Positions 2-12,688 of a DNA stretch of 12,873 nucleotides are shown one piece after another. The notes below the pieces were generated by a model. The model was not told where the DNA came from. It saw only the letters and a program-made list of their open reading frames with translations, and did no database searches. Numbering within the stretch: the first letter of the stretch is position 1; each line of letters begins with the position of its first letter. The position numbers and the translations under genes are program-made. The stretch is from assembly GCA_022838965.1 (NCBI GenBank), contig JALHDK010000081.1:4144-17016 (forward strand). Direction: 5' to 3'. Source of the DNA: Actinomycetales bacterium. Its GTDB lineage: Bacteria; Actinomycetota; Actinomycetes; Actinomycetales; Actinomycetaceae.

Positions 2-871
2 CCGGCCTACAACCCCGGGCGCTTCCTGGCCCGGTCAGTGGGAAGCGTCATGCGGCAGGGCATCGCTGACCTGGAGTGCATCGTGGTGGACGACGGCTCC
101 GAGGAGGAGCTCACGGCCCACCCGGAGCTGCAGGACCCCCGCGTGCGGCTCCATCGCCAGGACAACCGGGGGGTGTCGGTCGCGCGCAACGTCGGGGTGG
201 CGCTGTCCGACTCCCGATTCGTGGCCTTCCTCGACCAGGACGACGAGTGGCTGCCCGGCAAGCTGGCCCAGCAGCTCGCGGCGCTCGTGGCCGACCCCCG
301 TGCCGCGTTCAGCCACACCCCGTTCGTGTGGTCGCTCCCCTCGGGCGAACGCCCCACCGCGCCACAGCGCGTCACCTACGCCGGCTCGCTGGCGGGCGAA
401 GCGCACGTGTGTCTGAGCAGCGTCGTCGTCAGCCGATCGAACCACGACGCCGTGGGCGGCTTCGACCCGCTTCTCGTCCAGCAGCAGGACTGGGATTACG
501 TTCTGAAGCTCCTGCGCGTCTTCGGCGAGCCGGTGACCGCCAACCGCCCGCTGGTGCGGTACTTCGTGCACGGGGGCAATGCCAGCACCGACTACGCGGC
601 GGCGGCCGCCGAGGGGCGCAGCGTACTCGACCGCAGTGCCGTGGACGCGCACCGGCGGGGGGACGCGGACGCGCTGGCGGCGATCGGGCGGGGACGGCGG
701 GTGGCGCGCCGGCTCCACGCCCACCAGGCCGTGGACCGCGCTCGCGCATGCGTGCGCGACCGCGACGTCGTCGGGGCGGCGCGGCACCTCGGACGTGGCA
801 CGGCCATGGATCCCCTCGTGGTCGCGCGCGCCGTCGCCCGTTCCCTCGGGCGGCCGGAGGCGCGCACATGA
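2..871 (+). CDS. Family 2 glycosyltransferase, 5' truncated
   Basis: A GT-A fold inverting glycosyltransferase that would transfer a sugar from a nucleotide-sugar in the cytoplasm; donor and acceptor cannot be read. The frame is open from base 2, where it begins PAYNPGRF, the usual stretch after the first beta strand of GT2 enzymes, so only about 10-15 residues are lost at the window edge. In the 289 visible residues, VVDDGS lies at 28-33 (nucleotide binding), DQDD at 78-81 (the DxD-type metal site) and QQDWDY around 161-166 (the usual acidic acceptor/catalytic region). A V-H-G-G-N motif follows near 190. The C-terminal 90 residues are Ala/Arg-rich and probably helical. The stop overlaps the ABC gene start (ATGA, 868-871), so the two are probably translated together. 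The internal GTG at 38 is not the start, because the GT2 fold clearly begins before it. Confidence 0.9.
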   Translation, partial: PAYNPGRFLARSVGSVMRQGIADLECIVVDDGSEEELTAHPELQDPRVRLHRQDNRGVSVARNVGVALSDSRFVAFLDQDDEWLPGKLAQQLAALVADPRAAFSHTPFVWSLPSGERPTAPQRVTYAGSLAGEAHVCLSSVVVSRSNHDAVGGFDPLLVQQQDWDYVLKLLRVFGEPVTANRPLVRYFVHGGNASTDYAAAAAEGRSVLDRSAVDAHRRGDADALAAIGRGRRVARRLHAHQAVDRARACVRDRDVVGAARHLGRGTAMDPLVVARAVARSLGRPEART

Positions 872-2673
872 CCCGCATCCTGCGCATGCTGAACGACATC
901 TTCGACCGGCGGATGAAGGTGTCGCTCGTGGGGGCGGTCATCGCCTCCGTTGTTCTCGCCCTGCTGGACACCCTCGCCATCTCGCTCGTCCTGCCCCTTG
1001 TCGATCTTGCCGCCGGGAACACCGCGGACTCCGGGGCGATCCGCCTCGTCTCGGGGATCCTCGGGGATCCGGATCCGGAGACCCTGCTGCGGATCCTCGC
1101 CGGAGCCGTGGTGAGTCTCTTCATCCTCAAGGACCTCGGCTCGGTCGCCTACGCGTGGTGGCTGGCGGGCTTCAAGGTGTTCGAACGGGTCAAGCTGCAG
1201 AACCGGATGCTGCGGCACTTCCTCAGTTCCCCGTACACCCACGTGTCGCGGCGCAGCACGTCGGAGATGATCCGGGTCATCAACGATGCCGTCACCCAGG
1301 TGTTCGGCACCCTCGTCTTCGGCCTCATGGGCCTGGTCAGCAACATCATCTCGATCGTGGCGATCGCGACCGCGCTGCTGCTGGTGGCACCGCTGCCGAC
1401 GCTCGCCGTCCTCGTCTACTTCGGCATCGCCTCGTTCGCCTACTTCTCCGTCATCAAGCCGATCGCCGCGCGTGCGGGCCGGGAGTCCGCGCGGGCGGCG
1501 CGGGACAGCTGGAGTGCGGCCCTTGCCGCCCTCGGTGGCATCAAGGAGATCAAGCTCCGGAACACCCAGTCGTTCTTCCTGACGCGCTTCCGGGAGGCGG
1601 CGCTGCGCGGGGCTCGTGCCTCGCGCACGGCCGAGATCCTCGGCGGGCTTCCCCGCTACCTGCTGGAGATCCTGTTCATCCTCGGGGTGGGGATGTTCCT
1701 GCTGCTCAGTGCAGACGGCCTGCGGTCCGGATCGACCATCGGCATCCTCTCGCTCTTCGTGGCGGCCGGGTTCCGCGTGCTGCCCTCGATCACCGGCCTG
1801 CTCGGCAACCTCGCCAACTTCCGGTTCGGCTCCCCCTACCTGGGGATCCTCCATGCCGAGGTGCTCGCCTCGCGGGAGATCGAGGCGGTCGCGGAGGAGC
1901 CGGGCCCCCCGCTGCCGTTCACCCGCCTGCTCCGTCTGGAGGAGGTCTCGTTCCGCTACCCCGGGGGGGACCGCGACGTGGTGTCGGGGGTCTCCTTCGA
2001 GGTCCCGCACGGGTCGTCCATCGCCCTCGTGGGCGGGAGCGGTGCCGGGAAGACCACGCTGGCTGACCTCATCCTCGGCCTCCACGACCCCGCCTCGGGC
2101 CGCATCGTGGTCGACGGCGTGGACATCGCCGGACGCAAGATGCGCTGGCAGCAGCGCCTCGGGTACGTGGCCCAGGAGATCTTCTTCCTTGATGCGACCC
2201 TGGCCGAGAACATCGCCTTCGATGTTGACCGGCGCGAGATCGACGAGGAGCGTCTCTGGAAGTCCATCCATCAGGCACAACTGGACGAACTGGTTGCCGA
2301 GCTGCCCGAGGGCGTCAACACCCCACTCGGCGAACGCGGGACGCGGCTGTCCGGAGGCCAGCGGCAGCGGGTCGGCATCGCCCGCGCGCTGTACCGCCAG
2401 CCGGATCTCCTCGTGCTCGACGAGGCGACGGCGGCCCTCGACAACGAGACCGAGCACCGGCTCACCCAGGCGATCACCGCCCTCCGCGGCGACATCACCG
2501 TCATCCTCATCGCGCACCGGCTCTCCACGGTGCGCCATTGCGACCAGCTCGTCTTCCTCAAGGACGGCCGGGTCGAGGCCGTCGGGACCTTTGACGAGGT
2601 CCGCCAGTGCAACGCCGACTTCGCCGAGCTGGTGCGGCTCGGCACGCTCGAGCGGCAGGGCGGGGAGGCGTGA
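868..2673 (+). CDS. ABC exporter half-transporter, PglK/MsbA-like (TMD-NBD)
   Basis: A 601-residue membrane ATPase with an N-terminal six-helix transmembrane domain and a C-terminal nucleotide-binding domain, expected to work as a homodimer. Hydrophobic segments lie near residues 18-45, 70-105, 145-200 and 265-320. The ATPase motifs are complete: Walker A GGSGAGKTT at 389-397 (Lys395), Q-loop Gln436, signature LSGGQ at 494-498, Walker B LLVLDE ending at Asp518/Glu519, and switch His550. The FRVLPSITGLL segment before the ATPase domain resembles the end of the membrane domain in PglK-type lipid-linked oligosaccharide flippases. Flanking GTs on both sides support flipping or export of a glycan; peptide export is an alternative given the PqqD/HprK-like genes downstream. 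The ATG at 868 has GGAGG seven bases upstream and overlaps the previous stop. The frame stays open upstream to 76, but that stretch is a shadow of the GT2. Confidence 0.93.
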   Translation: MTRILRMLNDIFDRRMKVSLVGAVIASVVLALLDTLAISLVLPLVDLAAGNTADSGAIRLVSGILGDPDPETLLRILAGAVVSLFILKDLGSVAYAWWLAGFKVFERVKLQNRMLRHFLSSPYTHVSRRSTSEMIRVINDAVTQVFGTLVFGLMGLVSNIISIVAIATALLLVAPLPTLAVLVYFGIASFAYFSVIKPIAARAGRESARAARDSWSAALAALGGIKEIKLRNTQSFFLTRFREAALRGARASRTAEILGGLPRYLLEILFILGVGMFLLLSADGLRSGSTIGILSLFVAAGFRVLPSITGLLGNLANFRFGSPYLGILHAEVLASREIEAVAEEPGPPLPFTRLLRLEEVSFRYPGGDRDVVSGVSFEVPHGSSIALVGGSGAGKTTLADLILGLHDPASGRIVVDGVDIAGRKMRWQQRLGYVAQEIFFLDATLAENIAFDVDRREIDEERLWKSIHQAQLDELVAELPEGVNTPLGERGTRLSGGQRQRVGIARALYRQPDLLVLDEATAALDNETEHRLTQAITALRGDITVILIAHRLSTVRHCDQLVFLKDGRVEAVGTFDEVRQCNADFAELVRLGTLERQGGEA

Positions 2674-3347
2674 TGCGAGGCATCGCCGTCGTGATCGCGG
2701 CCCGCAACCCCGGGCCACTGCTGGCGGAGGCCCTCGCATCGGCCACCGCCCAGACCCGCCCGCCCTCGGCTGTCGTGGTGGTCGATGACGGTTCCACCGA
2801 CGGGAGCGTGGGGGAGGCGGTGTCGGCGTTTCCCGCCGTCACCGTGATCACCCAGGCCCCCCGCGGCCGGTCGGCCGCCCGCAACCGGGGTGCGATGGCG
2901 ACCGACGGGGACCTCCTCTTCCTCGACGCCGACGACGTCCTCCGCCCTGAGGCGCTCGCGGTGCTGGGGGCCGCCCTCGACGCCGATCCCGCGCTGGACA
3001 TGGTGCACGGCCGGGTCTTCGAGTTCGTTGACCAGCTCCGGCCACCCCCGCCGGGGGTCCGCAGCCGCGATGCCGAGGTCTTCGTCCGGCTCGGGGGGTC
3101 CACCCTCGTGCGGCGCTCGCTGTGGGACCGGGTGGGACCGTTCGACGAGCGGATCGACCGTGGGGAGTGGATCGACTGGATGAGCCGCGCCGCGCATCTC
3201 GGCGCCGTTGCGCGCGACCTTCCCGAGGTGGTCCTCAACCGTCGCCTGCACGCGGCCAACTCACCCGGGGAGAACAACGCGCCCTATCTCGCGGTGGTCC
3301 GCGCCGCTCTGGCCCGGGCGCGGGAGGCGGCCGAGCGCCGGGACTGA
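2673..3347 (+). CDS. Short family 2 glycosyltransferase
   Basis: A 224-residue cytoplasmic GT2 enzyme, little more than the GT-A core. VVDDGS is at 36-41 and LDADD at 84-88 (nucleotide and metal binding). Later come RGEWIDW, in the place of the usual acidic catalytic region, and RRLHAANS near the C-terminus. There is no membrane anchor, so it probably acts on a lipid-linked or protein-bound acceptor together with its neighbours. The ATG overlaps the ABC stop by one base (TGATG), with GGGGAGG just upstream; the GTG one codon earlier is possible. It is a close paralog of the GT2 at 5505-6182: a gapless block of 65 residues from HGRV onward matches at 44 positions by hand count. Sugar specificity is unknown. 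Confidence 0.9.
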   Translation: MRGIAVVIAARNPGPLLAEALASATAQTRPPSAVVVVDDGSTDGSVGEAVSAFPAVTVITQAPRGRSAARNRGAMATDGDLLFLDADDVLRPEALAVLGAALDADPALDMVHGRVFEFVDQLRPPPPGVRSRDAEVFVRLGGSTLVRRSLWDRVGPFDERIDRGEWIDWMSRAAHLGAVARDLPEVVLNRRLHAANSPGENNAPYLAVVRAALARAREAAERRD

Positions 3348-3422: not shown

Positions 3423-3857
3423 ATGGCGGAGCGGGTGTGGCAGGTTCAGACTGACCACGTGATGGCGGAGGTGCTCGAGGGCGAGGCGGTGATCATCGAC
3501 ATGGCCTCGGGCCGCTACCACGCCGCGTCCGGCGTGGGGGCGACGATCTGGGAGGCCGTCACCGCCGGGCAGCCCTTCGATGGCATCCTGACGGACGTCC
3601 GGCGCCGCCACTCCGAGGTCCCCGCTGACGCCGCCGGGCATGTGGAACGATTCCTCACCGAGCTCGTCGATGCCGGTCTGGTCACCGTGAGCGAGGTGGA
3701 GAACGCGGCCGCGCCGCGTGGCGCGACCGGAACCGCGCCCACCCCGTGGAAGCCGCCGTCGCTCGAGACGCACAACGACCTGCAGGATCTCCTCCTCCTG
3801 GACCCGGTCCACGAGGTCACGGAGGCCGGCTGGCCCCACGCCGCACCCGAGGCATGA
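3423..3857 (+). CDS. PqqD-like (RRE-fold) protein with conserved-looking C-terminal tail
   Basis: A 144-residue protein. Residues 8-92 look like a PqqD-type winged helix: strands around VMAEVLEGEAVIID, then the typical GRYHAAS turn with IWEAV after it (29-46), and a last helix FLTELVDAGLV (77-87). PqqD folds are peptide-binding domains (RiPP recognition elements) that present a peptide to a modifying enzyme. After an Ala/Gly/Pro-rich linker (95-108) comes a distinct tail beginning W109, with LQDLLLLDPVHEV at 120-132 and GWP at 136-138. Ordinary PqqD proteins are about 90 residues and have no such tail. I recall similar tails in PqqD-like proteins beside HprK-like genes, but this is unchecked. 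The stop overlaps the kinase-like gene start (ATGA, 3854-3857), suggesting the two proteins act together. It might bind a peptide encoded elsewhere, or its own tail may be the substrate. Confidence 0.8.
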   Translation: MAERVWQVQTDHVMAEVLEGEAVIIDMASGRYHAASGVGATIWEAVTAGQPFDGILTDVRRRHSEVPADAAGHVERFLTELVDAGLVTVSEVENAAAPRGATGTAPTPWKPPSLETHNDLQDLLLLDPVHEVTEAGWPHAAPEA

Positions 3858-4822
3858 GGTTCGGCCGGCTCATCGACTCCGCCAGGACCGCGATCGCCGG
3901 GACCGGGGAGAGCAGCGCGGCGTTCATCCTCGCGGGGCGCACGATCCGCCTCGTGGGCGCGGGACCGGCCCTCCTTGACCGTCTGCTGCCCGCGTTCGCG
4001 CACCTTCCCGCTGCCGATGCCGCCGCGGAGGCGGATCTCACCGTCCTGCTCTGGGATGTCGCCTCGACCGGCGTGCCGTTCCCCGACCTCGGGGACTTCG
4101 AGGCGCGGCCCGGCTCGCCGGTGACCCCGACGCTCCACGGGGGCTCGTGGTCCTTCGTCCACCACGCGTATGAGAACGCGATGAGCTACCTCGACCGCGA
4201 GCAGTCGCTCGGCGTCTACGTGGCCGCGGACGCCGCGACGCTCCTGCCGTGGGACCGGGCGTGCCCGCTGCGCTCACTTCTGACCCGCTGGCTCGCGCCC
4301 CAGCGGCTGCTACTCGCCCACGGCGCCGGGATCGGGGGGCCCGGGGGCGCCGTCGTTCTCGCCGGCCCGGGCGGCAGCGGCAAGAGCACGACGTCGATGG
4401 CGTGCTTCGCCGCGGGCATGGGGTACCTCGGCGACGACTACGTCCTCTTCGACATCGACCACCAGTCGGTGTGGTCGGTGTACGGCTCCGCCAAGCTGGC
4501 CGGAGACCACGCCAAGCGTGTCGGCTGGCCGGTGAGGGACCGGCCGGAGGCGATCGTGCTCTCCGCCCCGGTGCGTGCCATCATCGTGCCGGTGGTCACC
4601 CGCGGGCCGGTCTGCACGATGGCACCGGTCCCCGCCAGCCGGGCCCTCATGGCCATCGCGCCCCCCACCATGTTCCAGACGGCGGGCGACCAGCGGGCCG
4701 CGTTCCACCTCACCACCGATTTCGTCCGGGGTTTGCCCACGTTCCGGCTCGAGCTCGGTGCGGGCCTCGAGCACGTCCCGGGCATGATCCGCACGCTCAT
4801 CGAGGAGGGGAGGGCACCGTGA
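3854..4822 (+). CDS. HPr kinase/phosphorylase-like P-loop protein
   Basis: A 322-residue protein with a P-loop of the HPr kinase type. It shows LLLAHGAGIG (His156 within it), Walker A GPGGSGKST at 171-179 (Lys177), a YLGDDYVLFD segment with Asp194/Asp195, and YGSAKL at 210-215. This order is typical of the HprK-related kinases found beside PqqD-like genes. True HPr kinase phosphorylates a serine of the carbon-regulation protein HPr, but this protein lacks the recognisable HPr-kinase N-terminal domain. In Bacillales lasso-peptide clusters such as paeninodin, a related kinase phosphorylates the precursor peptide; the target here is unknown. No HPr homologue is visible in the window. The ATG overlaps the PqqD-like stop and has only a weak GAGG next to it, so translation is probably coupled. 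Residues 1-150 are poorly conserved and probably help bind the partner. Confidence 0.85.
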   Translation: MRFGRLIDSARTAIAGTGESSAAFILAGRTIRLVGAGPALLDRLLPAFAHLPAADAAAEADLTVLLWDVASTGVPFPDLGDFEARPGSPVTPTLHGGSWSFVHHAYENAMSYLDREQSLGVYVAADAATLLPWDRACPLRSLLTRWLAPQRLLLAHGAGIGGPGGAVVLAGPGGSGKSTTSMACFAAGMGYLGDDYVLFDIDHQSVWSVYGSAKLAGDHAKRVGWPVRDRPEAIVLSAPVRAIIVPVVTRGPVCTMAPVPASRALMAIAPPTMFQTAGDQRAAFHLTTDFVRGLPTFRLELGAGLEHVPGMIRTLIEEGRAP

Positions 4823-5508
4823 AACCGGGCATGACCAGCGTCATCATCCCGGTGTTCAACGGCGAGCGGTTCATCGGGGCCGCCCTGGAGTCCGTGCGCG
4901 CCCAGACACGCCCGGTCGGCGAGGTGATCGTCGTCGACGACGGTTCCAGCGACGGGACGCTCGATGTGGTGGCACGATTCCCCGACGTCGTCGTCCTGCG
5001 GCAGGCGAACGCCGGGCCCGCCGCAGCGCGCAACCGGGGCATCGCGGCCGCTCACGGCGAGTACCTCGCGATGCTCGACGCGGATGACCTCTGGCCCGCG
5101 GACCGCAACGAGGCGATGGCCCGGATGCTCGACGACGATCCCACGCTCGGTCTTGTGATGGGCCTCCAGCGGCTGCTGATCGAGCCGGGCGCGGAGGTAC
5201 CGGCCTGGGTGCCTCCCGGCGACCCTGACACCATCGACCCCGAGACGCTGCCGAAGCCCACCGGCATCTTCCTGACCCGCCGGTCCGTCTTCGAGGAGGT
5301 GGGCCCGTTCGACGAGGCGATGCGGCACGGTGAGGACACCGACTGGTTCCTGCGGAGCCAGGACCGAGGCGTCCGCTGGGAGCACCTCCAGCAGATCGTC
5401 CTCATCCGGCGCATCCACGGGCGGAATCTCACCAACGACGCCGAGGCGCAACGGCGCGCCCTGTTCGAGGTGCTGCAGCGCCGGATGGCACGGAGGCGGT
5501 CCGGATGA
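4819..5508 (+). CDS. Short family 2 glycosyltransferase
   Basis: A 229-residue GT2 enzyme. IIPVFNG opens the fold at 9-15, VVDDGS is at 38-43, MLDADD at 85-90 and HGEDTDWF at 170-177; Glu172-Asp173 is the usual ED catalytic/acceptor motif. RRIHGRNLT follows near 200-208. There are no membrane segments. The GTG start overlaps the kinase-like stop (GTGA, 4819-4822) and is preceded by a strong GAGGAGGGGAGGG run four bases away. The ATG at 4831 sits 16 bases from that run and is less likely. Its place inside the PqqD/HprK-like module suggests it acts on the same acceptor. It keeps a clearer ED motif than the two sister GT2s at 2673 and 5505 and probably transfers a different sugar. Confidence 0.9.
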   Translation: MKPGMTSVIIPVFNGERFIGAALESVRAQTRPVGEVIVVDDGSSDGTLDVVARFPDVVVLRQANAGPAAARNRGIAAAHGEYLAMLDADDLWPADRNEAMARMLDDDPTLGLVMGLQRLLIEPGAEVPAWVPPGDPDTIDPETLPKPTGIFLTRRSVFEEVGPFDEAMRHGEDTDWFLRSQDRGVRWEHLQQIVLIRRIHGRNLTNDAEAQRRALFEVLQRRMARRRSG

Positions 5509-6182
5509 TCACCATCGGCGTGGTCATCCCGGTGCGGAACCTCGGGGAGCTGCTGGCCGAGACGCTCGACTCGGTGATGTCCCAGAGGAGGCCGGCCGCG
5601 CTGGTGACAGTGGTCGACGACGGTTCCGACGACGACTCGGTCGCGGCCGTCGTCGCGCGCCACCCCGGGGTGCGGTTGCTGCGCCAGGACCACCGCGGCA
5701 CCGGGGCAGCGCGGAACCGAGGCGGCTCGGCGAGCGAAACCGACGCGATCCTCTTCCTCGACGCCGACGACCTGCTCCGTCCGGGCGCGCTCATGGCGCT
5801 GGGTGCCGCCCTCGACAGGGATCCGGACATCGAACTGGCCCACGGCCGGGTCCACGAGTTCGTCGACGGGCGCAACCCGCCCCCTCCCGGGGTCCGGCGC
5901 ACCGAACTCGACGTGGCGGCGCGACTCGCCGGGACAACCCTCGTCCGTCGGTCGCTGTGGGACCGGACCGGAGGCATGGACGAGACGCTGGTCCGGGGTG
6001 AGTGGATCGACTGGATGGGCCGGGCGGCGGACCTGGCCACGGGTACTGCCGAGGTGGCCGAGGTGGTTCTTGACCGAAGGTTGCACGGGGCGAACAAGTC
6101 CGCCGCCGGTGGGGACCGGACGCCCTATCTGACCGCCGTGGTCCGTGCCGCACTCCTGCGCAAGCGCGGGGCGGGCGAATGA
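5505..6182 (+). CDS. Short family 2 glycosyltransferase, paralog of the GT2 at 2673
   Basis: A 225-residue GT2 enzyme with VVDDGS at 36-41, FLDADD at 84-89, RGEWIDW in the place of the ED motif and RRLHGAN near the end. It keeps blocks such as NPPPPGVR and TLVRRSLWDR almost unchanged from the GT2 at 2673-3347, so the two arose by duplication. They now flank the PqqD/kinase/GT2 genes. The ATG is within the previous gene's stop (ATGA, 5505-5508) and has GGAGG eight bases upstream. Substrates are unknown. Sequence blocks this similar suggest the same acceptor class, or the same sugar added twice. Confidence 0.9.
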   Translation: MITIGVVIPVRNLGELLAETLDSVMSQRRPAALVTVVDDGSDDDSVAAVVARHPGVRLLRQDHRGTGAARNRGGSASETDAILFLDADDLLRPGALMALGAALDRDPDIELAHGRVHEFVDGRNPPPPGVRRTELDVAARLAGTTLVRRSLWDRTGGMDETLVRGEWIDWMGRAADLATGTAEVAEVVLDRRLHGANKSAAGGDRTPYLTAVVRAALLRKRGAGE

Positions 6183-7336
6183 GCGGGATTCCCGGACTGC
6201 GCGGCAACTTCTGGCCCGGCCCCGAGGATCGTGACCTGCTGCGGTTCCTGCTCCACGAGGACCAGGAGACGGCCCGGGCGGCATGGGCACGGTGGCGGCC
6301 GGGCTGGGATCCGGACACGCCGACCGCCGAGCAGTACCGGCTCTACCCGCTCCTCGCGGAGCGAATCGTCGAGTTCGGGATCGAAGAACCCCAGCTCGGC
6401 AAGCTCCAGGGAGTCCGGCGGCAGTACACCGTCCGCACCATGATCAACCTCGACCATCTCGAGGAGGTGTTGGCGACCCTCGAGGGTGCGGGCATCGAGG
6501 CGGTGGTGCTCAAGGGTGCCGCGCTGGTGTTGTCCGTCTACCGGAACAGCGGGCTGCGTCCCTTCCATGATCTGGACGTCCTGGTGGATCCCCGCCGGCA
6601 CGACGAGGCGATCCGGCTCCTCGAGAGCGAGGGATGGTCCCGGGTGTACGACTACGATCCCGGCCTCTGGGACCATGCAGTGACCCTGCGGCGCGGCGGG
6701 ATCGACCTGGATCTGCACCGCCGCTACAGCCGCGAACTGGTCATCCCGGGACACCTCGACCTCACGTGGGAGGTCACCCGGACCGAGATCGCACCGAGGA
6801 CGCTGCGGTCCGGGCGGGCGGTCCGGATCCTGGCCCCGACCGACACGCTGCTCCACACCATCGCGCACGGCACGTTCGCGCGCGGGCCGGTCGCCCTGCG
6901 GTGGCTCGCCGATGCGAAGCGTGTCATCGCGGTGGGTCCCATCGACTGGGACCGGCTGGTGCTCCTGTCAGGGGCGTTCGAGGTGAGCCCAGTGATCCAT
7001 GACGGTCTCGTCCTCCTGGGCGACATCACCGGATCGCCTGTTCCCGCCGAGCCCCTCGCGCGGCTGAGGGCCGCCCGCCTGCCGCGGGTGTCCCAGCGGC
7101 GTCTGGAGGCCTTTCACACCGTCCGGGAGACGGGCGGCCCGTTCGGTCGCCTGACGCGCGAGGTGGACCGTTACCTCGAGCTCACCCGGCACCTGCGCTG
7201 GAGCGAGGTCCTCGCGCGGGCCCCGAAATACGCCGTCGTCGACTTCTTCTGGCAGCCACGGGCGCGCCCCCGGCTGGAACACATTCTCCGGTCAGGGGGC
7301 CGGGCTCAGTGGCGGCGGCGCATCCAGGCACGGTAG
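6179..7336 (+). CDS. Nucleotidyltransferase-fold protein (PF14907-like)
   Basis: A 385-residue protein. The core shows VVLKGAAL (Lys112-Gly113), then RPFHDLDVLVDP with Asp131 and Asp133, and LLESEGW. This KG...DxD pattern is that of the NTP_transf_5 family (PF14907) of the polymerase-beta-like nucleotidyltransferase fold. Such proteins recur in lasso-peptide and exopolysaccharide loci beside HprK-like and PqqD-like genes; their reaction is not established as far as I know. The N-terminal 75 residues look helical, and the C-terminal third is Arg-rich with HTIAHGTFARG near 225. The ATG overlaps the preceding GT2 stop (ATGA, 6179-6182) but has no good ribosome site, so it depends on coupling. 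It ends the plus-strand block; its last 31 bases overlap the convergent GT2 gene. Confidence 0.83.
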   Translation: MSGIPGLRGNFWPGPEDRDLLRFLLHEDQETARAAWARWRPGWDPDTPTAEQYRLYPLLAERIVEFGIEEPQLGKLQGVRRQYTVRTMINLDHLEEVLATLEGAGIEAVVLKGAALVLSVYRNSGLRPFHDLDVLVDPRRHDEAIRLLESEGWSRVYDYDPGLWDHAVTLRRGGIDLDLHRRYSRELVIPGHLDLTWEVTRTEIAPRTLRSGRAVRILAPTDTLLHTIAHGTFARGPVALRWLADAKRVIAVGPIDWDRLVLLSGAFEVSPVIHDGLVLLGDITGSPVPAEPLARLRAARLPRVSQRRLEAFHTVRETGGPFGRLTREVDRYLELTRHLRWSEVLARAPKYAVVDFFWQPRARPRLEHILRSGGRAQWRRRIQAR

Positions 7337-8277
7337 GCGAGGTCCGCGACGCGCGGAGACACGAGGTAGGCCTCCGCCAGCAGCCTGAAGTGCAGCGGCT
7401 GGCGGGTGTGCCGCAGGTGCCTCACGGATTCCTTGAGGTGACGGTCGAACCGGCGCCGGAGGTCGTCGTCGCCCGAACTCACGACGGCACTGCGGAGGGC
7501 CAGTTGTTCGTCGAGCAGCGGACGGTAGCCGATGTTCCCCAGCCCCGCGCGTCGGAAGTACTCCGCCCTCTCCGTGAAGGCGACCAGCCGGTCCAGCCGC
7601 GACGCCGTGCCGTACTCGCTCGTCATCATGCTCCCGACGCGGTCCCGGTAGAAGTACAGGCGTTCCTCCGTGACCACCGTCCGCCGCGCACGGTGGAGCA
7701 CCTGGTAGAGGATGAACTCGTCCTCGTGCCTCACCCCGAGGGGAAACCGGAACTGCTGGAGGAGCGCCCGGCGGAACAGTTTGGCCCACGGGACCGTCAT
7801 GAGGGGGTAGTTCGGCCCCAGGAACTCGAGGAGCGCCGCCTCCGGAGTGAGCACGCTCACTCCGGCACCCTCCTCCGCTCGGGGGACCTCGCCGGGCGTC
7901 GCGTCGTCGGCAACGCGGGCGTAGTGACAGACGGCAGCGTCGGAGTCCGCACCCTCCAGGAGGGCGAGCATGCGCTCCACGAAGCGGGGGTCGAGCCAGT
8001 CATCGGCGTCCACCATCGTCACGCACCCGCCACCCGCTGCGGCCACCCCGGCGTTGCGGGCGGCAGACACCCCGCTGTTGGGCTGGTGCAGCACCCGCAC
8101 CCGGTTGTCCTGCCCTGCGTAGGAGTCGCAGAGCTCGCCCGACCCGTCCGTGGAGCCGTCGTCGACGAGAATCGTCTCCAGGTCGGCGTGCGTCTGGGCC
8201 AGGATCGAGTCGACGCACGCCCCCAGGTACCGTCCGACGTTGTACACCGGGACGACGACGCTCACCATCTCACCCAC
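7306..8277 (-). CDS. Family 2 glycosyltransferase (EpsJ-like)
   Basis: A GT2 enzyme of 323 residues from the chosen start. VVVPVYN opens the fold, VDDGSTDGS starts at 38, MVDADDW spans 88-94 and HEDEF spans 184-188 (the ED motif). LYFYRDRVGSMM follows at 207-218, the layout of many exopolysaccharide and teichoic-acid branch GT2s. The C-terminal 100 residues are helical and basic, perhaps for membrane contact. I chose GTG 8277 because GGAAGGGG lies seven bases upstream. ATG 8268 falls one base after the previous stop and ATG 8298 lies inside the previous gene; both are possible. It is the last gene of the minus block. The donor sugar is unknown. Confidence 0.88.
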   Translation of the reverse strand: MGEMVSVVVPVYNVGRYLGACVDSILAQTHADLETILVDDGSTDGSGELCDSYAGQDNRVRVLHQPNSGVSAARNAGVAAAGGGCVTMVDADDWLDPRFVERMLALLEGADSDAAVCHYARVADDATPGEVPRAEEGAGVSVLTPEAALLEFLGPNYPLMTVPWAKLFRRALLQQFRFPLGVRHEDEFILYQVLHRARRTVVTEERLYFYRDRVGSMMTSEYGTASRLDRLVAFTERAEYFRRAGLGNIGYRPLLDEQLALRSAVVSSGDDDLRRRFDRHLKESVRHLRHTRQPLHFRLLAEAYLVSPRVADLAYRAWMRRRH

Positions 8278-9178
8278 GCGGGCGCCCCTTCCCGCCATCG
8301 CCCTCGGGGAGCCGCATCGTCAGGAGCCGGGTGGTGCGGGTCAGGACGAGGCGCTGGAGGGCGTCGAGCCCCTGCGACCTCTCGCTGACCAGGGCGATGA
8401 GCGGCGCCAGGTCGCGCGCCATGCGCTCCGTGCGGGACTCGTCGGACCAGAGCGCGTCCAGCCAGGTCGCCTCCACTCCGAACCGCTGCCGGGCGAACTC
8501 CCGATAGGAGGCCCGGAGGCGAGCGTCGCTGAAGGCCTTCGTGAGGAAGGGTGCGGCGCCGGAGGTCTGGCCCGCGTGGTGGCGGTAGGCGAGCGCGGGG
8601 CGCGCGGTCCGCACCATGCTGTAACCCGCCGCGAGGGCGCGGAGCCAGAGGTCGTGGTCCTCCGCCGGGACGGTCCGGTAGCCGCCGGCACCGACAACGG
8701 CGTCCCGCCGGGCCGCCATCGTCGGATTGCAGAGGAGGTTGTGGACCAGCAGGTGGAGGGGCATCGCCTGGGCGGTGATCGGGAGCGGCAGGCCGGGGCG
8801 CAGGCGCGGGTCCCCCTCCCGGAAGCTCACGATGGGGGAGAAGACGAAGTCCGCCCCCGTGCGGAGCGCCCGGAGCTGACGGCCGAAGCGGCCGGGGAGG
8901 CTGATGTCGTCGGCGTCCATGGTGGCGACGTAGTCGCTGTCGGTGATGTCGAGGAGGCGCTGGCGTGCCGCCCCGACCCCGGCGGAGGTCGGGTTGCGCA
9001 CGAGCCGGAGCCGGGGGTCGGCGATCGGCTGGAGTGCCGCCTCGACGTCGTCGCTGGAGGCGTCGTCGAGGACCACGAGTTCAGCGTCCCGGGGAAGGGA
9101 GGACAGCGATGAGGTGACCGCGCGCCGGAGCGTGTGGGCCGAGTCCTTCACGGTGAGGTGGACGGAGATCAGCGGCAT
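8270..9178 (-). CDS. Family 2 glycosyltransferase
   Basis: A 302-residue GT2 enzyme. It has LDDASSDD around 37-44, TMDADD at 86-91 (metal site) and AEDHDLWLR at 172-180, where Glu173-Asp174 forms the acceptor/catalytic region. AYRHHAGQTS follows near 197-206, a usual GT2 feature. The C-terminal 90 residues are Leu/Arg-rich and end in a Gly/Lys/Arg tail. The ATG lies inside the end of the upstream GT4-like gene (ATGCCGCTGA, 10-base overlap). The nearest purine run, GAGGG, is 12 bases away, so translation is probably coupled. With its neighbours it would extend the surface glycan; the sugar cannot be predicted. Confidence 0.9.
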   Translation of the reverse strand: MPLISVHLTVKDSAHTLRRAVTSSLSSLPRDAELVVLDDASSDDVEAALQPIADPRLRLVRNPTSAGVGAARQRLLDITDSDYVATMDADDISLPGRFGRQLRALRTGADFVFSPIVSFREGDPRLRPGLPLPITAQAMPLHLLVHNLLCNPTMAARRDAVVGAGGYRTVPAEDHDLWLRALAAGYSMVRTARPALAYRHHAGQTSGAAPFLTKAFSDARLRASYREFARQRFGVEATWLDALWSDESRTERMARDLAPLIALVSERSQGLDALQRLVLTRTTRLLTMRLPEGDGGKGRPRG

Positions 9179-10146
9179 GAGGCGGCCAGACCCTCCCAGA
9201 ACCGGGGGAGCGAACAGCGCTCCAGCGTCTCCGTCCGAGCGGCCGCCCCGAGCCTCCGCCGGAGCGCCTCGTCCCGCCAGAGCCGGGTGAGCGCCGCGCT
9301 CAGGGCCACCGGATCCCCGGGCGGGACCACGAGGGCGGTCTCGCCATCACGGACGTAATCCCTGGTGCCGTTCACCGCGCTCGCGACCACCGCCTTCCCC
9401 ATCGCCATGGCGTCGAGGAGCACGAGCGGCCCGGACGGCAGGTCGGTGTCCACCAGGGCGACCGCCACCACGCGCGCCCGCGCTGTCAGCGTCCTGCCGA
9501 GGTCGGGTGGGGGCATCTCGATGACCTCGATCCGTCCCACGGCCCCCTCCGGAATGGTGAGAGGTCGGCCGGGCGCGAGCGTGGCCGGCAACCCGGCACG
9601 GTCCAGGGCGGAGAGCAGGCACGCCCAGTCGCGGTGCGCCCACCCGGCGGAGTAGACGTAGTCCTCCTCCACGCCGGGATCCGGAAGCTGGTCGGCGCGC
9701 ACCGGCCAGGGGAGGAAGGAGACCTTGTGCTCCGGCACTCCGAAGCGGGAGCGCAGCATCGCGGCATCACCGGACCGGATCACCAGGAAGCGATCGACCG
9801 GGATGACCATCGCCCGGGCGATCCGCGGTGGAAGCTGGGCGCGCGGCGCGAGGAAGTCGAAGACCACGACCCGGGTGTGGCGCGACCGCAGCTTGACGAG
9901 TGCTGCGACGAGGCTCGCCTCGATTCCCACGGTCGAGAGCACGACGCAGTCGTGCGCGGCGGAGTGGCGGGCCACAGTGAGGGCCTCACGCAGCATCCGG
10001 AGCCGGGCGCGCCACGGTGGCATGCCCCAGTCCGAGGCGCGCCGCACCACCTGGAACGAGGCCCCGTCCACCGTGGGGGGAGGCTCACCGAAGGCCCACG
10101 TCCACGGAGCCGACAGCAGGACCCGGGTCACCAGCTTTCCCTTCAT
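9169..10146 (-). CDS. GT-B glycosyltransferase, GT4-like
   Basis: A 325-residue enzyme whose C-terminal half is the nucleotide-sugar-binding Rossmann domain of GT4-like transferases. It shows YSAGWAHRDW at 165-174, LPSGPLVLLDAMAMGKAVV at 236-254 and NGTRDYVRDGETALVVPPGD at 259-278. In classical GT4 enzymes the EX7E motif surrounds this last region. Here the second Glu is Asp245 and the first position reads Ser, as in a subgroup with S-G-x-x-x-L-L-[ED]-A-M-A. The N-terminal domain is short. GT4 enzymes usually retain the anomeric configuration, for example mannosyl or glucosyl transfer; specificity is open. The ATG at 10146 follows a 70-bp gap after the TagF-like gene and lacks a good ribosome site. 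TAGGCT at 10164-10159 could be a weak local -10. Confidence 0.85.
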   Translation of the reverse strand: MKGKLVTRVLLSAPWTWAFGEPPPTVDGASFQVVRRASDWGMPPWRARLRMLREALTVARHSAAHDCVVLSTVGIEASLVAALVKLRSRHTRVVVFDFLAPRAQLPPRIARAMVIPVDRFLVIRSGDAAMLRSRFGVPEHKVSFLPWPVRADQLPDPGVEEDYVYSAGWAHRDWACLLSALDRAGLPATLAPGRPLTIPEGAVGRIEVIEMPPPDLGRTLTARARVVAVALVDTDLPSGPLVLLDAMAMGKAVVASAVNGTRDYVRDGETALVVPPGDPVALSAALTRLWRDEALRRRLGAAARTETLERCSLPRFWEGLAASCR

Positions 10147-10216: not shown

Positions 10217-12674
10217 TCATGACGCCGGGCGGGTGGCCGCGATCGCTGTGGTGACGCGCGCGCAGCACCCGGCGTCCCGCACGGGGAAGATCGACTGAAC
10301 CCGCTGGAGATGAGGCGCCTCCATGGTGAAGCCGCGCTCCGAAGCCGCACTCACCGCCGCGATCACGTCGTCGGGGCTCTCCGCCAGCGGCCCGAGGCCG
10401 TCACGCTCGCAGGCGAACCAGCCGGGCTGCCCGGGACGGGCGCCTCCCTCCGGCACGGTCCGGGCAAGCCGGACATGCACCACGGGCCGCTCGATGTAGC
10501 CGAACTCGAGGGCGAGCGACGGGTCGTCCGTGATCACCACGGCAGTGCGGGCGGCCACCCGCTGCACATCATCGTCACGCGTGACAAGGCTCCCGGTCAG
10601 GCACGCGTCCACCATGTCGGGGGTCCACCCGGGAGGGGCCAGGCACGCAATCCGCAGGTCGTGGCGGTTCGCCACGTCGGCCAGCCCCGGCGAACGGACC
10701 AGACTCTCCCATTCACCCACCCCGGTGGCCTGCCCCCCGCTCCGCGTTCCCGGCGCGGACGAGCGGGACCCCTGCCAGGCGGGAGCGACGAGCAGGAGGT
10801 CGCGGTCCGTGGGGCTGACGGCGTCGCCGAGGCGGCGCAGGCGGTCGAGGCGGGGCATCCCCGTCAGGCGTACCTCCTTCCACGTCAGGAGGTAGGGACT
10901 GCCGTCGGCCGTGATGGCGTCAGCCTCGCGCGGTGACGATGTGATGTGGAGGTCGATCGGAGCGGCGTTGAGCCGCAGCGATTCATCGTCCGTCATGATC
11001 GCGCGGCCCAGGTGCGTGAACCGGACGGGCTCGGCGCGCCAGCGGGTGATGCGCCGGGGGGTGGTCGCGTCGGGCCGGGAGGAGACGAGGTGCGCGCAGG
11101 TGAGCAACAGTGCGATCCAGGCGGCGCTGCCGTGGGCCACCAGCCGGTCACCGAAACCGTCCCTCTCGAGCCGATCCCAGTCGGGCGAGCCCCGGTCCAG
11201 CACGAACCAGGCGTTGATGTCCGGCCGGTGGAGCCGGAGGTGGCGGAACAGGTGTTCCGCGTTGTCACGGGCGCCGTGGACACGGTCCATGAGCAGCCAG
11301 GCGTCGGCGAAGTGATGCGGCGCCCGGGAGGCGAGCCCCACCATCCGTTGGGCGGACGCCACCGCCCCGGACCGCACAGCGGAACGCAGCGATGCCGCCG
11401 TGGGCGCAGCGGTGGCGTCGTGGAGGGCGACGCCGTCCCCATCAAGGACGACCCTGATGCGCTCGCCAGCCGGGAACCACGCGATGCGCCTCGTGAGGAG
11501 GTGCTCCCCGAACCATCGCAGGGACTGGGTCTTGCCGTGGGCGATGTCGACCGGTTCATCGCCGACCGTGATGGACTCGGTGGGCCGTCGGCCCTTGAAG
11601 AGGTACACCAGGCGGTCGAGTCCCGCGTCCCTGTCGCGGCGGTCAATGACCGCGTCCCGGGCATGCCAGTCCGCATCGTCGTTCAGGCGCAGCAGCACGT
11701 CCCGCGCCACCCGCGAGAGTTGCGGAACGGGAAACGCCTCGATCACGTCGTCGTCAAGGTGGGTGCGAACCTCGCGAATCGCGCGCACGTAGCCGGCTCC
11801 CACCTCCCCGACGGCGGCCGACGGCTCGAGGCGCTCGGCGCTGGCGAACTGCCAGGTCATGGAGTAGAGGATCATGTCCTGCAACCACCGCGGCACGTGC
11901 CCCGCAACAGCAGTCGCCTCCGAGAGGCACGGGAGGTAGCCGAAACGGGGGACGGTGGTGAAGGCCCGTGGGTCGAGGTGCTTCCCCTGGGACAACGAGG
12001 ACGAGTCGGCGCGCTGCCGGTAGAGATAGCGGGCGTCTGCCACGAACCCGATCCGGGAGCCGGCGTGCAGCAGGAAGCGGGCGGTGAAGTGGGTGTCCTC
12101 GAAGTGAGGGCGGATCCGGGTGTCGAAGTGCAGGTCCAGTTCCCGGACGGTGGAGGTCGGGAAGAAGGCGCAGCTGACCGGGGTGTGGAAGAAGTGGGGC
12201 ATCACCTCCAGGTCGATGACCCGCGAACCGCCTTCGAAGCGGTAGCGGAGAGGGTGTTCGTCCCGGAGCCTGCCGGTGGCGTCGTCGAGGTAGACCATGC
12301 GGGTGGCCAGCATCGCGCAGTCCGGGCCCGTGTCGAGGAAGCGGGTGACAGCCTCGAGGTAGCGGCGGTCGAGCACGTCGTCGGGATCGACGAAGCCCAC
12401 CCAGGTTGCGGTGACGTGGTCGAGTCCGGTGTTGCGCGCCGCCGCAACCCCCCCCGTTTTCCTGGGAGACCACGGTGACGAGCTCCGGGCTGCGCGCTGC
12501 CCAGGCGCGCAGGATGGCGGGCGAGTCATCCGTACTGCCGTCGTCGACGGCGATGACCTCGAGATCGCCTGTGCCGACGCTCTGCCGCTGGATGGAGTCG
12601 ATCAGGTCCGGGAGGTAGGGCACGACGTTGTACACCGGGATCACGAGCGCCAGGCGCTTCGGAGGTCCGGGCAT
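10217..12674 (-). CDS. GT2 / CDP-glycerol glycerophosphotransferase-like fusion, frameshifted
   Basis: Two frames together encode one protein of 818 residues if one G is removed from the run at 12448-12455. Residues 1-75 (LVIPVYN at 10-16, VDDGS at 43-47, ending SQENGG) are in one frame. From VAAARNTG (76 onward), FVDPDD (94-99) and HFEDTHF (190-196) the protein continues in another. The second half (about 430-815) resembles TagF-type glycerophosphotransferases: W-L-L-M-D-R with DNAEHLF (460-476), THLGR near 553-557, GMPRLDRL (605-612), LLVAPAW (627-633) and ITDDPSLALEF (714-724). This domain order is that of bifunctional GT2/teichoic-acid polymerases. As read, translation would give 75 correct residues, then about 230 of out-of-frame sequence to a stop at 11754. 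The ATG at 12674 is fixed by GAGGAG eight bases upstream. It is a pseudogene, a phase-variable gene or a sequencing error. Confidence 0.8.
12448..12455 (-). repeat. Run of eight G (minus strand) at the frameshift
   Basis: The coding strand reads AAAAC, eight G, then TTGCGGCGGC. Seven G would join SQENGG to VAAARNTG in a single GT2 frame; eight put the gene out of frame. Mononucleotide runs of this kind inside surface-glycan genes are classical sites of slipped-strand phase switching, and also classical sites of base-calling error. Confidence 0.85.
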
Positions 12675-12682
12675 GATTCGCA

Positions 12683-12688
12683 CTCCTC
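12683..12688 (-). promoter_or_regulatory. Ribosome binding site of the GT2/TagF-like fusion
   Basis: GAGGAG on the minus strand lies eight bases before ATG 12674. It overlaps the alternative GTG at 12683, which rules that start out. Confidence 0.65.

Follow-up and report, generated by a model that had tools for sequence, protein, structure and literature searches.

Proteins with a PqqD-like fold usually signal a cluster for a ribosomally synthesized and post-translationally modified peptide (RiPP) whose precursor must be found. The window analysed here, a stretch of 12,873 nucleotides from an Actinomycetales bacterium (assembly GCA_022838965.1, contig JALHDK010000081.1, positions 4,144 to 17,016), holds such a protein in a cassette with an HprK-like kinase, two family 2 glycosyltransferases (GT2s) and a PF14907 nucleotidyltransferase-like protein, and the PqqD-like protein ends in a conserved tail that resembles a RiPP precursor. 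With a precursor-like peptide built into the PqqD protein, such clusters would resemble lasso clusters that are incomplete. The cassette is a widespread and real module, apparently undescribed, with the tail as its defining part; neither the tail strings nor the gene combination was found described in the open papers of PubMed Central (PMC), a collection that leaves aside subscription papers and preprints.

The closest described systems are the lasso-peptide clusters of pseudomycoidin and paeninodin (PsmK, PsmN, PadeK). In pseudomycoidin, PsmK is reported to phosphorylate the C-terminal Ser (PMC9266682; PMC8498205, section 8), the addition of one or two hexoses to the phosphorylated Ser is described as depending on the nucleotidyltransferase-like PsmN, and knock-outs link PsmK and PsmN to phosphorylation followed by hexose addition (PMC9266682). 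The cassette resembles these clusters in its PqqD protein (B1), HprK-like kinase, nucleotidyltransferase-like protein and YxxP-type leader motif, but it has neither a cyclase nor a B2 protease, its peptide is fused to the PqqD domain and nearly invariant, GT2s are standard members, and no C-terminal Ser is conserved. A second likeness is to HPr-rel-A, whose kinase and PqqD families are related to those described here and whose glycan neighbourhood was mentioned in an earlier note on this DNA, made from its letters alone. Membership was rejected on scores: the window kinase reaches 36.5 bits against TIGR04352 (cut-off 200) and the PqqD-like protein 19.6 bits against TIGR04353 (cut-off 35), a model of 74 positions that does not include the tail. 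TIGR04353 was matched at E ≤0.01 by 17 of 111 members of the tail-bearing family, their standing against the cut-off not being shown. The cassette is thus neither a lasso cluster nor, by score, a member of HPr-rel-A.

Two further comparisons concern the form of the protein. Borosin precursors of the OphMA type are reportedly fused to their own enzyme, and there too the peptide substrate lies in cis on its recognition protein; the fused part is a methyltransferase in OphMA, whereas the cassette has a leader-binding PqqD domain. In section 6 of PMC12710340, 21% of PF05402 proteins are said to exceed the discrete size without another Pfam and are treated as an open field; the tail-bearing family shares this form, and sections 6 and 7 of that paper mention neither a tail nor a self-leader.

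The PqqD-like protein and its tail

The window protein scores 39.2 bits against PF05402 (cut-off 23.4), which identifies a RiPP recognition element (RRE), and no NCBIfam model scored above its own cut-off against it. The PqqD domain ends near residue 88, and the C-terminus reads WKPPSLETHNDLQDLLLLDPVHEVTEAGWPHAAPEA. Across the family the tail consists of a lasso-type leader motif, [WFY]xxPxL, followed by the almost invariant D(M/L)QDLLLLDP(I/V)HEVxxxGWP. A recognition motif W/Y/LxxP has been reported for the RREs of lasso and PqqD systems (PMC12710340, section 7), and the start of the tail fits it as a predicted leader. The earlier note saw no RiPP core gene, which stands for a separate gene but not for a precursor-like peptide, since the C-terminal 36 residues of the PqqD protein have that character.

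Conservation is concentrated in the tail. An alignment of 34 sequences, one of them from the window, has 12 invariant columns, 10 of them in the tail, and among 111 proteins the mean frequency of the top residue is 0.85 in the stretch 119–140, 0.48 in the PqqD domain and 0.26 in the linker. These 111 come from 113 collected (P0047 has the tail and was too short for the cut; P0056 has no tail), and because the protein search collects by shared words, conserved tails are favoured among them. Within the leader motif, an aromatic residue stands at −18 in 106/111 and Pro at −15 in 94/111, the latter also in 15 of the 21 tails from kinase-anchored loci described below. A pattern for the conserved end matches the window at 3801–3835 and gave no match in 200 shuffles. 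The near-invariant polar candidates in the tail, where no hydroxyl residue is conserved, are Asp127 and His130, with Asp119.

An AlphaFold2 (AF2) model of the protein has a mean predicted local distance difference test score (pLDDT) of 88, with values of 89 for residues 101–110, 91 for 111–120 and 60 for 121–130, a strand at 113–117 and a helix at 120–124. The leader-like segment is confidently ordered to about residue 120 along with the PqqD domain, and less surely beyond, and the conserved end (127–144) is flexible, with pLDDT 53–64. The solved fold nearest to the PqqD domain is that of the lasso leader-binding protein TbiB1; a search of solved structures using the tail alone gave no match.

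Distribution of the tail and its link to one kinase clade

A degenerate DNA pattern for DP(I/V/M)H(D/E)(V/I/M)...GWP, scanned over one genome per species, matched at least 116 loci from at least 15 phylum-level groups (by the names of the source records), so that the ‘actinobacterial version’ proposed earlier proves too narrow. As these loci were picked by the pattern, the invariance of the DP.H and GWP columns among the 116 listed proves nothing. For 110 of these the motif comes close to the end of an open reading frame (ORF) that allows a start at 110–200 codons; the other six comprise four whose ORFs are cut by the locus edge (L012, L049, L070, L091), plus L086 and L035. PF05402 was matched by 107 of 111 sequences, namely the 110 ORFs and the window protein. 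One cassette, with genes for the PqqD-tail protein, a nucleotidyltransferase, an HPr kinase, an FkbM methyltransferase and glycosyltransferases, sits on plasmid pCRI9333.04 of the named strain Crinalium epipsammum PCC 9333, which, with the spread over distant phyla, makes the module testable.

Around the tail, 117 places (the 116 loci listed and the window; mostly 8 kb, many cut) contain an HprK-like kinase in 92, a GT2 in 91, PF14907 in 56 and an ATP-binding cassette (ABC) ATPase in 28, where the ABC and GT2 profiles are broad and may match other members of those superfamilies. A common order is PqqD-tail, kinase, GT2, GT2, sometimes ABC, then PF14907. The trio of PqqD-like protein, kinase and nucleotidyltransferase with GT2s, remarked on from the window alone, is therefore a recurring module. 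The kinase is absent from 25 places, 14 with at least 1.2 kb of room downstream and 11 with less. Other glycan-type neighbours recur, among them family 4 glycosyltransferases (GT4), sulfotransferases, FkbM methyltransferases and short-chain dehydrogenases/reductases (SDRs). A scan of neighbours, which covered 10 cluster representatives and 20 proteins and was not systematic, showed no protease, and a radical SAM family occurs in 3 of the 117 places listed, with one member identified.

The converse question, whether the kinase predicts the tail, was approached with a kinase profile (A3) of 70 rows built from tail-chosen loci and searched in six genome groups. Its scores form two bands: full-length matches, from about 250 bits upward, and a lower band of mostly partial matches. 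A few scores lie between. Matches of at least 250 bits, counting the central record of each group, were found in 8 of 148 genomes of the class of the Acidimicrobiia record, 4 of 198 of the phylum of the Chitinophaga record, 2 of 190 of the class of the Novosphingobium record, 5 of 146 of the phylum of the Oscillatoria record, 3 of 199 of the phylum of the Phycisphaerales record and 8 of 149 of the phylum of the Acidobacteria record. The distribution of the cassette is sporadic.

In a first set of such loci, a tail-bearing PqqD protein was present in 19 of 20 after widening (16 of 20 in a 4-kb view, the wider view adding three), and the twentieth, L226, stops at the contig end; a second set, from two further phyla, gave 9 of 9. 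After removal of overlaps with the tail-chosen set (L212, L220, L222, L224 and L227 from the first, L249 and L253 from the second) and of L226, whose contig ends before the place of the PqqD gene, and with the centre loci L237 and L244 not counted, every testable locus not chosen by its tail carries one (14/14 and 7/7; 21/21 in all). Asp at −8 and the D, P and H of the conserved end are present in all 21 of these unbiased tails, and GWP in 19. Below 250 bits the association fades: 41 of 75 kinase rows have a PqqD match, and the tail lies nearby in three (L127, L135, L200). Among further low-scoring loci, L251 (157 bits) has the tail and L252 (111 bits) does not. On a quick kinase tree of 94 of the 96 rows, the tail label needs 4 changes against a shuffle mean of 20.6, with L174/L233 labelled ‘none’ despite a shortened tail. 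GT2s accompany 20/20 and PF14907 15/20 kinases of the first set, and each accompanies 6/9 of the second. In these genome sequences, then, the tail is tightly linked with one clade of HprK-like kinase and with GT2s, and often with the PF14907 protein.

The AF2 model of the window kinase has a pLDDT of 92.8, and its fold matches phosphoenolpyruvate carboxykinases (PEPCKs) and HPr kinases. His156, Gly176, Lys177 and Asp195 are invariant in 70 kinase sequences and Asp194 is nearly so, and a profile alignment places this stretch on the His, P-loop and Asp-Asp of HPr kinase 1jb1; TIGR00679, the HPr kinase/phosphorylase equivalog, gave 10.6 bits against a cut-off of 240. Several genes are fused: the kinase and two GT2s form a single ORF of 951 residues adjoining the tail protein in L235, kinase and GT2 share one ORF in L219, L223 and L226, and L234, from the genome that also contains L200, has a kinase–PqqD domain fusion next to a separate tail protein. 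These fusions suggest that the kinase works with the GT2s and with a leader-binding domain. The PF14907 profile found no useful match among PDB sequences.

Genes for the lasso cyclase (PF00733) and B2 protease (PF13471) were sought in the 19 genomes that hold 20 kinase-anchored cassettes. As far as the contigs reach, neither lies within 10 kb of any cassette (0/20), and the nearest match sharing a contig with one is about 158 kb away; in G348 the two families occur together on one contig (C42) and the cassette on another (C72). Of 30 tail-bearing genomes, 11 have a PF13471 match somewhere in the genome. A scan of ten window proteins gave no match to a lasso cyclase or protease family, and no separate short precursor gene recurs among 3703 ORFs of 25–70 residues in 32 cassette loci; the eight short-ORF groups common to at least three loci run antisense to the kinase, GT2 and other cassette genes where positions were compared. 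A lasso cluster with unseen genes was thus rejected on the evidence of relatives, and the module stands outside lasso clusters, as the earlier note had supposed. Enzymes of the PF02397 family, which would serve lipid-linked priming, lie within 10 kb of 1 of the 20 cassettes (G032), and 3 of the 19 genomes have no match at all; this weakens lipid-linked priming by such an enzyme and leaves room for other primers.

Some tail sequences depart from the usual form. L035 has the tail between two PqqD-like domains (7070–7999, + strand) in a single open frame running off the locus, so the tail is not always terminal. L086 has a tail-type ORF of 83 residues (1701–1952, − strand) with neither a PqqD domain nor, in 3.5 kb, the rest of the cassette; beside it on the same strand is a long ORF (91–1653) that we take to encode a GMC-type oxidoreductase. 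L200, L234 and L251 form a divergent branch with the tail ADPIHE(I/V)K.ETGW and a charged extension beyond. Short proteins matching the tail number 346, and 80 of the 120 listed start with Met; several are without a PqqD part, such as P0258, of 45 residues, on an 88.6-kb contig. P0258, P0304, P0318 and P0309 start just ahead of the leader-like motif, one of them with a signal-peptide-like start. The short proteins, mostly on short contigs, may be separate tail genes or gene fragments, and we draw no conclusion from them. An origin in phages or plasmids was rejected: with P0258 as query, the phage collection gave nothing and a single plasmid record matched. For the cassette contigs L015, L019 and L071, the record titles Akkermansia muciniphila and Klebsiella pneumoniae look doubtful.

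Neighbouring genes vary as well. A family of about 350 residues without a Pfam match lies downstream of the tail gene in 8 tail-anchored loci (e.g. L042, 3449–4489, + strand). Genes for short-chain dehydrogenases or NAD(P)-dependent oxidoreductases recur beside cyanobacterial cassettes (L213, L216, L217, L232), with SMP-30 in L213 and L232 and a protein of glycoside hydrolase family 26 (GH26) in L217.

Possible roles of the tail

We favour, at roughly even odds, a reading by analogy in which the presented tail, or a sugar on it, is phosphorylated and glycosylated by the kinase, the PF14907 protein and the GT2s; it is favoured because the cassette has the PsmK and PsmN enzyme types plus GT2s. 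The cassette would be a stand-alone biosynthetic module whose leader-binding domain and precursor-like peptide are one protein. The leader-like segment would be seated in the groove of its own PqqD domain, so that the conserved end, DPxHEVxxxGWP, would be offered to the partner enzymes. The kinase could phosphorylate this end or a sugar attached to it, hexoses could be added by the PF14907 protein and the GT2s, and the ABC exporter, where present, could move the glycan product. Since no protease turned up in the neighbours scanned, the peptide is probably kept on the protein as a carrier or primer and not set free as a small peptide. The earlier suggestion, a carrier protein that is phosphorylated or nucleotidylated and controls or receives a glycan, is plausible. 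A fuller version, held only tentatively, is that of a new ribosomal carrier whose PqqD domain holds its own leader and whose nearly invariant peptide is phosphorylated and then acts as primer or carrier for a GT2-built glycan across the at least 15 phylum-level groups. A tail that primes a glycan would link RiPP chemistry to glycan assembly, and would give a function to PF14907 and to this kinase clade.

Several points weigh against modification of the tail. RiPP cores are usually variable, and the core of this tail is nearly fixed. Lasso kinases act on a C-terminal Ser, whereas the cassette tails have no conserved hydroxyl: Ser, Thr and Tyr are not conserved in the flexible end, and any of them occurs within 12 positions after DPxH in 13 of the 21 unbiased tails. 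Two kinase-anchored tails (L229, L230) are without GWP, and L174/L233 (228 bits) keeps the leader part and DP and has lost the HEV..GWP end. The self-docking is predicted from a single AF2 model, and VIA alignments to lasso leader-binding proteins stop short of the tail. For pseudomycoidin itself, PMC9266682 leaves it open whether PsmN nucleotidylates, with a host enzyme adding the sugar.

With no hydroxyl acceptor conserved, the strongest rival remains a serious one, though we think it the less probable: the tail would be a docking scaffold, itself unmodified, whose conserved end gathers the kinase and GT2s around a glycan or activated sugar built elsewhere, the kinase being a sugar kinase and the PF14907 protein a nucleotidyltransferase. 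The very low variability of the tail is what a binding motif would show, a boost of tailoring enzymes by lasso B1 proteins has been reported (PMC9266682), and the recurring glycan-type neighbours and the failure to see a protease among those scanned also agree with a scaffold. Such a scaffold, however, has no need of a leader motif of the lasso type that folds with the protein's own peptide-binding domain, and enzymes that recognise a precursor usually have the layout seen in L234, where a kinase with a fused PqqD domain stands beside a separate tail protein.

Tail modification also has to be set against an unlikely alternative in which the peptide becomes a conserved cofactor or small molecule, as with PQQ or mycofactocin, and is later freed by general proteases. 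A near-invariant core fits such a fixed product, and the SDR genes of cyanobacterial cassettes, the few radical SAM genes and the oxidoreductase-like neighbour of the L086 tail ORF are further points in its favour; but radical SAM genes are rare, no protease was seen among the neighbours scanned, SDRs are also ordinary in glycan clusters, and the 3.5 kb of L086 do not contain the rest of the cassette. Least probable is an ordinary lasso cluster of the paeninodin/pseudomycoidin type with cyclase and protease just outside the window, already disfavoured by the relatives and by the want of a recurring precursor gene. In its favour, lasso clusters do contain PqqD, HprK-like and nucleotidyltransferase proteins (PMC8498205, section 8; PMC7533575), and about 4 kb of the 17,016-base contig lie outside the inspected stretch.

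Genes of the window

Seven genes form a same-strand run: ABC exporter, GT2, PqqD-like, HprK-like, GT2, GT2 and PF14907. In the last five, each start overlaps the preceding stop by a few bases, which suggests coupled translation; family matches and coordinates agree with this overlapping set as first noted.

Table 1. Positions of the cassette, its tail and the flanking genes in the window
Feature	Position	Strand	Basis
ABC exporter (membrane and ATPase domains fused)	862..2673	+	best NCBIfam matches PglK and MsbA, both below cut-off
GT2 glycosyltransferase	2670..3347	+	PF00535, E 6.6e-21
PqqD-like protein, 144 residues, with own conserved C-terminal tail	3423..3857	+	PF05402 at residues 21–87, E 8.7e-10
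Leader-like segment W109xxPxL..DLQDLLL, residues 109–126	3747..3800	+	motif counts, AF2 pLDDT, RRE recognition motif
Flexible conserved end DPVHEVTEAGWPHAAPEA, residues 127–144, proposed presented peptide	3801..3854	+	pattern match, pLDDT 53–64
HprK/PEPCK-fold kinase (His156, P-loop Lys177, Asp194-Asp195)	3854..4822	+	TIGR04352, E 2.8e-9
GT2 glycosyltransferase	4819..5508	+	PF00535, E 9.5e-32
GT2 glycosyltransferase	5505..6182	+	PF00535, E 2.1e-21
PF14907 (NTP_transf_5) nucleotidyltransferase-like protein	6179..7336	+	E 3.9e-38, 131.9 bits, cut-off 31.2
Convergent glycan genes: two GT2s and a GT4-like protein	7306..10146	−	neighbours, outside the conserved module

A defence system was rejected as an explanation of the run, 6 of the 7 proteins having no PADLOC match; the ABC transporter alone matches the mad3 and mad8 models, which is read as generic ATPase similarity. 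Beyond the convergent genes, a gene whose N-terminal part is a GT2 occupies 10217–12683 (− strand); its coding sequence is divided over two frames near 12430, where a natural frameshift and a sequencing error are not distinguishable. The C-terminal half of this gene resembles a CDP-glycerol phosphotransferase.

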